DNA of 64,000 nt from Beverwykella pulmonaria (lineage: Eukaryota; Ascomycota; Dothideomycetes; Pleosporales; Melanommataceae): positions 814,976-878,975 of the forward strand of contig BCHH01000007.1 of the NCBI GenBank assembly GCA_001599595.1, in the 5' to 3' direction. Below the pieces are notes generated by a model that saw nothing but the letters and a program-made list of their open reading frames with translations, did no database searches and was not told where the DNA came from. Positions 60,175 through 64,000 of the stretch are shown in pieces (within the stretch, counting starts at the first letter, position 1; each line of letters begins with the position of its first letter). The position numbers and the translations under genes are program-made.

Positions 60175-61233
60175 TCAAAGTATGATGCTCTGGTCGCCTT
60201 GGACAGTTTTTGTCCCTACTTGCTCTCCAATCTTGCTGTCGTCGTTATTCCATGTGTTAGAAATACCACCTGCTCCCTTGATCGTCTCCTCTACTGTGTC
60301 TACCTTCGCTACTTCAGCTGGTGGTATCACCGAGAGCACCTCCTTGGCACACGCTGCTGCCGTTCCTGCCGCGTACGGCTGCCACTTCTTGTTCTTGTGC
60401 GAGTCGGCATAGTCACAGATGCCTCGAATGACAAGACACGGGAAGCTATTCATCAGGCCGGCCGCTTCCATCTCGAAACAGACTACTCCGCCCAGCTCTG
60501 TACTGACTCTGTCCCTTTCGGCGCCATCTCTTATGACTTGATTGCCTGATGCGATTGTCCCATAATGCACCACCACTTCTTGCACGCGCGGCTCGCGAGA
60601 CACCAACCTGTCTTTATTACACTTGCCACATGTTGCCCCTCCCTCGTGATTGTACTCGGATTCGAACAGGATATCCAGGCCGGCAGCCTCGCGCGCAAAT
60701 CCTGGTAAGCTATTGAGCTTAGAAAAGAACTCCGACAGCCTGGATCTTCCTCTAAAGTGGTTGGCGCGCATGTTTGTGACAGCGTTGAGTAGGATGGTTG
60801 GTGGAGTGTTGAGGGATCCTGTCCGCTGGAAGCCGCTCGGCGTAGCTTTCCCAGAGTCATATTGAACCACTCCGCCGTGCACATTCAACGGTCTGCTGAT
60901 GACGACGTCGCCGAGCCGCACGTCCACCTCCTCACTTGGAACTCCTCCTCCGATGCCCACCATCAAGCCAAACCGGATGGACGTGAATGCAGACTTCATC
61001 TGGTTGGCTACTGCGGCGGCTGAGTTTGTCCCAGTTTGGCCCTCGGGTAGACAGGCGATGACAACGTTGTGTTGGCAGATTTTCCCGAGCGAGTAAATAT
61101 TTGTGTCATGCCCATCCTGCTGGAGACCTTCGTGCTCCTCATCGAGCATCTCCTGCGCAGCCGCCAGCTCGACTGGAAGCGCGCACACCCATCCTACAGT
61201 ATAATCCTCGCGTCGAAGCTGGCGGCGTGGCAT
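60175..61233 (-). CDS. PNP/UDP nucleoside-phosphorylase-domain protein with a C-terminal NLR-matching motif
   Basis: Single exon of 352 residues with ATG at 61233. Residues ~10-305 are a purine/uridine phosphorylase-type domain: DYTVGWVCALPVELAAAQEM, MVGIGGGVP, RLGDVVIS, GTIASGNQVIRD, FEMEAAGL and IRGICDYADSHK. In fungi this domain is usually the N-terminal module of NLR-type proteins; here it stands alone and resembles a free effector. The tail is Gly/Asn/Asp-rich. It ends in residues 330-352 with N-D-D-S-K-I-G-E-Q, then T-V-Q-G-D-Q-S-I-I-L. The same pattern occurs at residues 12-32 of the divergent NACHT-WD40 protein whose start is 511 bp away. That pairing is how amyloid-signalling effectors and NLRs are arranged. 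Enzyme activity on nucleosides is possible but untested. The conserved Glu/Asp residues of the domain are present. Confidence 0.9.
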   Translation of the reverse strand: MPRRQLRREDYTVGWVCALPVELAAAQEMLDEEHEGLQQDGHDTNIYSLGKICQHNVVIACLPEGQTGTNSAAAVANQMKSAFTSIRFGLMVGIGGGVPSEEVDVRLGDVVISRPLNVHGGVVQYDSGKATPSGFQRTGSLNTPPTILLNAVTNMRANHFRGRSRLSEFFSKLNSLPGFAREAAGLDILFESEYNHEGGATCGKCNKDRLVSREPRVQEVVVHYGTIASGNQVIRDGAERDRVSTELGGVVCFEMEAAGLMNSFPCLVIRGICDYADSHKNKKWQPYAAGTAAACAKEVLSVIPPAEVAKVDTVEETIKGAGGISNTWNNDDSKIGEQVGTKTVQGDQSIIL

Positions 61234-61744
61234 TCGAACGGCTGTTGCACCAGGGCGGCCGAGAGACTTAAGGCAGCAGACTATAGCGATCGCAGAGACT
61301 CGTGAAGGGTCGTGGAAGCGATTGAAGGTTGTAAAACGCGACCAGCAAGGCAGCCGGCCAAGGAGAGAACCCTCTGCATGCCATGTAATTTGTCGCCGAC
61401 GCAGCCTCCCCTACCGACACGAAGTAGCAGGCGCTTGCAGTTCACAGTAGCAAGACTCAATCATCTGAAAAGCGGGGACAGCCACCCGCTATTATTGGTT
61501 TGCGGGGTCATCACGTGCAGTTAGTTACGGCCAGCTTCAGCCCAGCTGAGGTCGTGCATTCAGCTCAACGTCAGAGCCAATCAAACTCATCAGGTCGGTT
61601 AAAAAGGTGGGCCCTTCTACGGTAATCAAAAGGTGGTGGGAAAACACGTGATTCTCAGACTGCCCGGGCGCTTGAGTACACAAGGCTACCAAAGCGAACT
61701 GCATTTGTCTGAGGTGCACAGCTTATCGCTATGATTCTATTGTG
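61234..61744. promoter_or_regulatory. Bidirectional promoter region of the PNP/NACHT pair
   Basis: 511 bp between the two divergent start codons. It contains CCAATCA at 61576-61582, ATTGG near 61494, and TCACGTG motifs near 61511 and 61646. The shared region suggests co-expression; this is inferred from layout alone. Confidence 0.5.
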
Positions 61745-64000
61745 ATGTCACAAGGATCGCCGCAGGTCAGCTTCTCCAACGACGGAGGAAAGGTTGGAGT
61801 TCAGGCTCATAACTACAACGTCCATGGTGACCAGATCTTGCAGTAAGTCTGTTAGATCTTTATCATTGCGCTTACGGACACGGCTTGACTGCCTTTGACA
61901 GGTTCACACGCGATCAAGATCCGCTAGCACTGCTGCCTGAAGCATCGAACGCTGTTTTCAACGCATCGGGAAAAGAAGACGAGCCTATTTGCCTCCCTGG
62001 CACTCGAGTCGGTGTCCTTGACGAAATCAGAGCATGGATTGAGGGAGAAAACAAGCAGCATATCTTCTGGCTGAGTGGCTGGGCAGGCACCGGAAAGTCC
62101 ACGATAGCACGCACAGTTGCACGAGAATACTACGATAGAAACCGACCAGTGGCGAGCTACTTCTTCTCAAGAGGTGGTGGCGATGCTGGCAACGCGACCA
62201 AGTTCGTTGGCACAATCGCCAGGCAACTGGCGAACAAATTGCCAAAGTTCAGGGAGCAGCTCCGGAAAACGTTGTCAGAGGATGAAGGCATCCTCCGTCG
62301 CGTCCTAAAGGATCAATGGCGGGAACTTATCACAACACCTCTAGTGCACCTTGCGGTCGACTCGTACCCGTCCCCAGTTGTCATAGTGGTCGATGCGCTA
62401 GACGAGTGCGACACTGAGAGTAGCATCAGGCAGGTGATTCAGCTTCTGGCCGACACGACAAATCTGAACCAACAACGGCTTCGAGTTCTGATTACAAGTC
62501 GACCTGAAGTACCGGTCCGAGAAGAGTTCTCGCGATTCCAACCGAGTGAACACCTCGTACTACAGGATATCTCGAAGTTTATCGTCGAACAGGATATTTC
62601 GCTTTTCCTCAAGCATCACCTCGCGACAATCGGCCCGGAAGACGAGGTAGTCGAGCAGCTTGTGCGAAAAGCTGCGGGTCTGTTTATCTGGGCCGCAACC
62701 GCCTGTCGATTCATTTGCGAAGGGGCATCCCCCGAGAAAAGGCTCCACATCATCCTAGGAAGCTCCAGCTCCACTCTCACATTAAACTATCATATCGATG
62801 GAATCTATATTTCTTTGTTCCAAAACATTATCAGAAGCCTAATTTGGAACACTAGTTACCTCTGGTTTTGGATAGCAGTCGCCTGTGGCTTCAGCCGCGA
62901 AGGGGTAGTGGTCAAGCAATCGCTACGAACACTTGTTATGGGCAATACCACTCCGGAAGATCACCTCGACGTCATCTATCTGACTGTCCTGGACAGTTCT
63001 CTTCGCTCGAGTTTTACTCCGCAAGACATTAGAGACTTTCATAGTATGGTAAGAGACGTGCTTGGAAGCATCGTCGTTCTCTTCTCCTCTCTTTCGGTTA
63101 AATCACTGAGCAATTTACTCTTGAAACCGGAGAAAGACCTTACCTGGACGATGAATGACCTCCATGCTCTTCTAGAGATCCCAAAGGATGCTCAACACGC
63201 TGTTCGTCTACATCATCCATCATTCCGGGATTTTCTTCTTAGCAAAAAAAGGTGTTGTGACTCGTACTTCTGGGTGGACGAGAAGCAGGCACATCAAGCG
63301 CTGTTCGACAGCTGTCTCCAGCTTCTGTCAACATCTCTGAAGCAGGACATCTGCGAAGTAAATGCTCCGGGTATGCTTGCGGCCAAGCTGGAGAGCGGTC
63401 GAGTCGAGCAGTTCCTTCCTCCTGAGGTCCAGTACGCATGTCTATACTGGATCCAGCACGTCCAGAAGAGCGGCACCCAGATTCGCGACAATAGCCAAGT
63501 GCACCAGTTCTTACAGGAGCATCTCCTTCACTGGCTCGAGGCCCTTGGGTGGATAGGGAAAGTTCCGGAAGGAGTTCATGCCATCATGTCTTTAGAGTCG
63601 TTTGTGTCCGTTAGTATACCTCTAGCATGGGAAAAGGCTTCAGCTAATAGTTCGGCTAGTCAAGTGAATGCCCTCTTCTTTCGAATTTCATCCACGACGC
63701 GAAGCGTTTCGTTCTCTATAACCGGTTAGCTATTGAGCAGGCGCCCCTTCAGACGTATAGTGGTCTAGTATTCGCACCGATGACGAGTATAATAAGGGAA
63801 AGGTTCAAAATCTGCATACCTAGATGGATTCGAAGGCTGCCAAGGGTCGAAGAGAAATGGAATGCGGCTCTCCAGACGCTCGAGGGCCATTCGAAATCGG
63901 TCTACGACGTGGCCTTCTCGCCGGACGGCAAGCTGCTGGCGTCGGCTTCAGACGACAGCACCGTCAAGCTGTGGGACGCCGGCTCAGGAGCGCTGCAGCA
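61745..64000 (+). CDS. NACHT-WD40 NLR (HET-E-like), partial, with an apparent frameshift
   Basis: Exon 1 is 61745-61842 and exon 2 starts at 61902 (intron GTAAGT...TGACAG). Residues 12-32 hold N-D-G-G-K-V-G-V-Q, then N-V-H-G-D-Q-I-L, matching the C-terminus of the neighbouring PNP protein. The NACHT NTPase follows: Walker [10 protein letters not shown] (Lys98), Walker [13 protein letters not shown] (Asp197, Asp200), sensor-like LITSRPE, then helical WHD-like segments ([13 protein letters not shown]). The frame of exon 2 ends at 63727-63729 (TAG), giving 641 residues. The expected continuation [13 protein letters not shown], then [13 protein letters not shown], and the first WD40 unit ([20 protein letters not shown]) lie in the +2 frame from about 63660 to the window end. 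A frameshift in 63660-63726 is the simplest reading. The gene continues beyond the window. The family controls cell death after non-self recognition. Confidence 0.9.

Follow-up and report, generated by a model that had tools for sequence, protein, structure and literature searches.

A PNP_UDP-domain enzyme and a neighbouring NACHT-WD40 receptor of Beverwykella pulmonaria share a short terminal motif and form a candidate amyloid-type signalling pair

Introduction

In the amyloid-signalling pairs of fungi described in PMC5485727, a homotypic motif is found at the C-terminus of an effector and at the N-terminus of the NOD-like receptor (NLR) encoded by the adjacent gene. According to Wojciechowski 2022 (PMC9815663), PNP_UDP-domain effectors are among those paired with NLRs in this way, through the PNP_UDP-associated amyloid signalling motif (PUASM), an HRAM3-like motif (NLR12) and a rarer motif. 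One PUASM pair formed fibrils, and its effector side was a prion in Podospora (PMC9815663). The PNP_UDP domain itself is described as an immune ATP hydrolase or nucleosidase (PMC10197012, PMC12881547), including an ATP nucleosidase role in bacteria (PMC10197012). Here we analyse a 64,000-nucleotide stretch of Beverwykella pulmonaria (contig BCHH01000007.1; G000:C7:814976-878975, called the window below), taken from an assembly of 45.6 Mb in 31 contigs, in which a gene for a stand-alone PNP_UDP enzyme lies divergently beside an NLR gene of NACHT-WD40 type. We conclude that the two genes are likely to be an NLR/effector pair signalling through a short amyloid-type motif. An earlier note, made from the window alone, had proposed such a pair; layout, motif and statistics fit that proposal. 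A PNP domain as amyloid-signalled effector is not new in kind: the PUASM, HRAM3-like and PF01048_015 cases of PMC9815663 were already in print.

Results

The enzyme ends in the motif N-D-x2-K-I-G-x-Q-x5-V-x-G-D-Q, and a matching motif is encoded by the first exon of the separate NLR gene. Effector C-terminus and neighbouring receptor N-terminus thus carry homologous motifs. Residues 330–348 of the enzyme (NDDSKIGEQVGTKTVQGDQ) align without gaps with residues 12–30 of the NLR frame starting at 61745, and 9 of the 19 positions are identical. The earlier note had given the same identity count and gap-free alignment, and had taken N330 to L352 as the last 23 residues of the enzyme; its account of both ends was borne out, the latter in a frame of 352 amino acids. 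The BLOSUM62 local score of the enzyme tail against the NLR peptide is 48. Composition-keeping shuffles reached this score in 0 of 20,000 trials when the NLR peptide was shuffled and in 1 of 20,000 when the enzyme tail was. Used as query, the NLR peptide found the enzyme C-terminus as its top non-self match among 5,928 C-termini (48; next 40), and the enzyme tail found the NLR exon as its top non-self match among 12,096 six-frame segments (next 37). Both sets were drawn from 68 sources, namely the window and selected loci rather than the whole genome, with five loci that overlap the pair left out. In locus L039, a 9.5-kb stretch that opens shortly before the NLR gene and extends past its end, no other segment scored above 32 against the motif. 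The similarity between the two termini is confirmed as real.

The enzyme's tail recurs in nine of the best 120 of 8,000 scored PNP relatives, while 91 of the 120 are 308–328 amino acids long and lack it. Over the ten tail-bearing enzymes, invariant residues make up 12/19 of the motif core, 14/25 of the whole tail, 133/275 of the PNP domain and 3/24 of the linker that precedes the tail; the tail is constrained as strongly as the enzyme domain. Seven of the 12 invariant core residues recur in the NLR motif, and seven of the nine identities between the partners sit at positions invariant in all ten tails. Set against the tails of the nine relatives, the NLR peptide is identical at 7 or 8 of 19 positions, a result that 0–23 of 5,000 shuffles equalled or bettered.

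The two remaining identities are private to the window pair. They lie at the two core sites where the window enzyme departs from the residue usual in the nine relatives: at position 331 it has D against H in seven of them, Y in one and S in one, and at position 347 D against N in all nine. The NLR carries D at both equivalent sites, an agreement that looks like partner matching at two sites.

Several results weigh against the pair. D331 and D347 count among the nine identities but are absent from all nine relatives. A tail profile built from the relatives, without the window tail, ranked the NLR exon only 14th among the 7,272 listed, with E = 35 (rank 5, E = 4.2, when the window tail was included). 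The NLR-side motif was found once, the genome search returning a single match, and a protein search with NLR residues 1–45 gave three candidates, none at E ≤ 10. The earlier note had named as refuting a lack of the motif in neighbouring PNP and NACHT genes of related fungi; of such a recurrence the enzyme side is seen, in nine relatives, and the NLR side was not found elsewhere by this protein search. The weak rank of the relatives-only profile, the two private identities and the shortness of the motif would also fit a chance resemblance between two glycine-, asparagine- and glutamine-rich ends. Both sets of shuffles and the placement of seven identities at invariant residues argue in the other direction, and we consider chance very improbable.

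Further searches with the tail region returned six of the nine known tail-bearing relatives and nothing new. Viral contigs gave no match, and bacterial and archaeal contigs gave one, without the tail. This contig (L078, NYXK01000071.1), titled as a deltaproteobacterial metagenome-assembled genome, codes for a PNP of fungal appearance (62% identical) with an NTPase frame of AAA_16 type after it, and is probably fungal contamination. Two PNP relatives, P0015 and P0051, have a different C-terminal tail in common, GS-L-x-QGNY-[VI]-GRD, which may be a further signalling motif of this enzyme clade.

The motif was compared with the HRAM, PUASM, sigma and PP definitions. The HRAM rules in PMC4518210 ask for a hydrophobic residue or stated variant at positions 5, 8, 10, 16 and 18, R/K at 15, N/Q/H at 3 and G at 19. 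The enzyme side agrees at 5/8 positions and the NLR side at 4/8 (HRAM1-5), and 523 and 1,779 of 3,000 shuffles, respectively, do as well; two control exons from the same genome, L048 and L049, agree at 8/8. The window motif resembles the HET-s-related HRAM and HRAM3 (NLR12) motifs in its N(3)–G(19) spacing of 16 and, on the enzyme side, in K15 and the hydrophobic residue at 8. It differs from them at core positions 5 and 16 on both sides, at 10 on the enzyme side and at 18 on the NLR side. The HET-s prion domain profile PF11558 had no match and was equally silent on its control, and Pfam searches with the short motif peptides gave no match for these or for HRAM3-type control peptides and are hence uninformative.

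PUASM (NLR32) has the architecture seen here, a PNP_UDP effector with a NACHT or NACHT-WD40 NLR. As in the Colletotrichum gloeosporioides pair EQB50682/EQB50683, the effector motif is C-terminal and the neighbouring NLR has its motif at the N-terminus, and both window motifs have a G-x-Q core and G-[ND] near the end. The PUASM pattern given in PMC9815663, FxGxGxQxxGxGxF, is nevertheless matched by neither: each side agrees at 2/7 defined positions, which 2962 and 2978 of 3000 shuffles equal.

The sigma system (sesA/sesB/het-eN) likewise has receptor and effector as neighbours in a cluster, but its motif is described as about 40 residues long with threefold submotifs (PMC5485727). The sigma profile PF17106 exceeded its cut-off at nine places in the genome, none in the window or on contig C7. 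These places (G000:C3:2846k, C6:774k-782k, C9:1852k-1854k and C10:1885k), most of them grouped closely and on both strands, resemble sigma-type clusters.

PP and RHIM motifs (HELLP, SBP and PNT1; RIPK1/3) have a GxQxG segment in common (PMC5485727). The enzyme side carries it as G-E-Q-V-G, within a pseudo-palindromic K-x-G-x-Q-x-G-x-K, whereas the NLR side reads G-V-Q-A-H. The PP profile PF17046 had no match in the genome, in a search that included no PP-bearing control genome. The motif could thus be a divergent G-x-Q-centred member of the PP/RHIM or PUASM type and no new family, a reading favoured by GxQxG on the enzyme side and by G-x-Q and G-[ND] on both sides. We find it unlikely, given that GxQxG is missing from the NLR side, that G-hydrophobic-Q-hydrophobic-G is found on neither side, that the PP profile is silent, and that shuffles fit the PUASM pattern equally well. 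By the published rules the motif is neither HRAM nor PUASM, and it is not among the matches of the sigma profile. The earlier note had found that it does not obviously read as HRAM, sigma or PP; this is supported for the first two.

A somewhat stronger alternative, which we nonetheless regard as the less probable case, is that the motif is one more member of a published PNP motif, PF01048_015. In PMC9815663 this second motif goes with PNP_UDP alone, is rare, with four pairs, and differs from PUASM; the support for an identity is this association, which fits but is indirect. PMC12261475 names "PUASM 1-2", and we read its "PUASM 2" as PF01048_015. We found no description of the window motif in the literature searched, which excluded supplements and subscription journals.

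The features of the two genes are given in Table 1. In the NLR, exon 2 matches NPHP3_N (E = 5.1e-36) and also NACHT. The earlier note had ended the NLR at 63729, which is the stop of the unspliced frame. We had considered that the gene is broken there and dropped the idea because a predicted 50-nt GT..AG intron restores the frame; with it spliced out, the frame from exon 2 into the WD40 region is stop-free to base 64000. Beyond the window the WD40 exon passes a run of 1,225 N and reaches a stop at about G000:C7:880712. The WD40 repeats flanking the N run hardly differ from one another; for short-read assemblies, PMC12222747 describes such near-identical WD40 repeats with N tracks in allorecognition NLRs.

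Table 1. Features of the enzyme and receptor genes, in window coordinates
Feature	Position	Strand	Basis or remark
Stand-alone PNP_UDP-domain effector gene, single exon, 352 amino acids plus stop	60175..61233	-	one open frame
PNP_UDP_1 (PF01048) domain, residues 13-299	60337..61197	-	profile match
Conserved C-terminal tail W328-L352	60178..60252	-	14/25 residues invariant, 10 sequences
Motif core N330-Q348, effector side	60190..60246	-	alignment with NLR exon 1 and PNP relatives
Divergent intergenic region between the two start codons	61234..61744	.	511 bp; putative shared promoter region
NLR exon 1, 98 nt, encodes N-terminal motif	61745..61842	+	reading frame starting 61745
Motif core N12-Q30, receptor side	61778..61834	+	alignment with PNP tail
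NLR intron 1, 59 nt, GTAAGT..CAG	61843..61901	+	predicted
NLR exon 2, NPHP3_N/NACHT NTPase region (NPHP3_N at about 62020-62502)	61902..63609	+	profile match
NLR intron 2, 50 nt, GTTAGT..CTAG, joins NACHT frame to WD40 frame	63610..63659	+	predicted
NLR exon 3, WD40 start (first repeat about 63870-63977), runs past window end	63660..64000	+	

The enzyme scores as a distant relative of the methylthioadenosine/S-adenosylhomocysteine (MTA/SAH) nucleosidases, and the PADLOC "PN-superfamily" effector model matches it with E = 1.2e-18. Its E256 and D274 are invariant in both of our alignments (A1 and A2) and align with the conserved E and D of the MTA/SAH nucleosidases. It therefore has both the domain and the conserved active-site E and D of a PNP_UDP immune effector. 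We take E256 and D274 to be catalytic, as in the nucleosidase active site. By analogy with described PNP_UDP enzymes, it may cleave ATP.

Twenty other PNP loci of the genome were examined. A P-loop NTPase motif follows within 700 bp downstream in 12, was absent from the sequence examined in seven, and one was unscored. The 12 look like PNP-NACHT fusions, and PNP would therefore be an NLR output domain in this genome, in which profile searches of the contigs gave at least 89 NACHT matches. Such fusions, for example L010, use the same PNP domain as NLR output in a single gene with a splice donor, whereas the window enzyme is a separate gene with the tail at that place. In L010 (PNP 79% identical) and in L020, the PNP frame stops at a GTTAGT donor where the window enzyme continues into its tail; the tail may have taken the place of the joint of the fusion. 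L020 lies beside the NLR L048 and was considered as a parallel pair; it was rejected, its frame running on into a P-loop NTPase.

Five of the closest paralogs of the window NLR have other short conserved motif exons 37–66 bp before the NACHT match. Those of L048 and L049, the two HRAM controls, share with HRAM3 an H at position 3; they lie at G000:C6:2159699-2159791 (L048/L074) and G000:C7:460529-460633 (L049/L073), and no effector partners were found for them. The other three, L047, L050 and L051, have a second motif in common. This N-terminal motif, GGQ-[ST]-FAGINLGTI-x-YA, could be placed in no family (exons at C9:985699-985797, C4:2666968-2667051 and C10:710227-710307; L075-L077). L055 has a longer N-terminus with a PigL_N match (E = 3.5e-11), SesA falling just under its cut-off. 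Because the paralogs carry HRAM3-type, second-motif or PigL_N N-termini, the group appears to exchange its N-terminal signalling exons.

Elsewhere in the window, positions 18983-58756 hold ordinary-looking genes, among them an RPOL_N/RNA_pol-type RNA polymerase, P450, MatE, Pex2/Pex12 and a calpain-type protease, together with a frame that by eye resembles an ammonium transporter.

Discussion

Taken together, the pair is real, probably functional and of a known kind. In favour of an amyloid-type pair are the reciprocal best match with the shuffle results, the constrained tail, the D shared with the NLR at both private sites, the apparent PNP-NACHT fusions, the other motif exons of the NLR paralogs, the PADLOC effector match, the near-identical WD40 repeats and the published precedents for a PNP_UDP domain with a motif and an NLR. 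If it works like the described amyloid pairs, ligand binding by the WD40 repeats would make the NACHT module oligomerise, and the N-terminal motifs of the NLR would then stack into a beta-arch amyloid nucleus. This nucleus would template the C-terminal tail of the enzyme, and the clustered enzyme might cleave ATP or a related nucleotide. The resulting depletion could lead to cell death or arrest, as a defence of the incompatibility or antiviral type. The amyloid nature of the motif and its templating by the NLR are drawn from homology and layout. Homology of two termini indicates pairing and does not in itself indicate amyloid, so the shared ends could instead be a docking or co-assembly motif, for example by strand addition, with the NLR activating the enzyme by direct binding. 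This is rather improbable in our view: described amyloid pairs have the same arrangement, with a homotypic motif C-terminal in the effector and N-terminal in the receptor of the gene next to it (PMC5485727).

Beyond the pair itself, it is conceivable, at something short of an even chance, that the motif represents a further fungal amyloid family specific to this PNP clade, in which the fusion was replaced by two genes, as the tail at the splice donor of the fused genes would suggest, and the motifs co-varied, as the two private D residues matching the NLR would suggest.

The kind of system is already known, and its motif is possibly new. Few amyloid motifs are known for fungal NLRs, and the wider question is how many parallel channels one cell has and how specific they are. 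At least three such channels (sigma, HRAM3-type and the window motif) apparently coexist in this genome, in addition to PNP-NACHT fusions, so that a comparison of fused and amyloid-coupled PNP enzymes could be made within a single organism. Should the private D residues reflect partner matching, the pair would suit the study of how barriers to cross-talk evolve.

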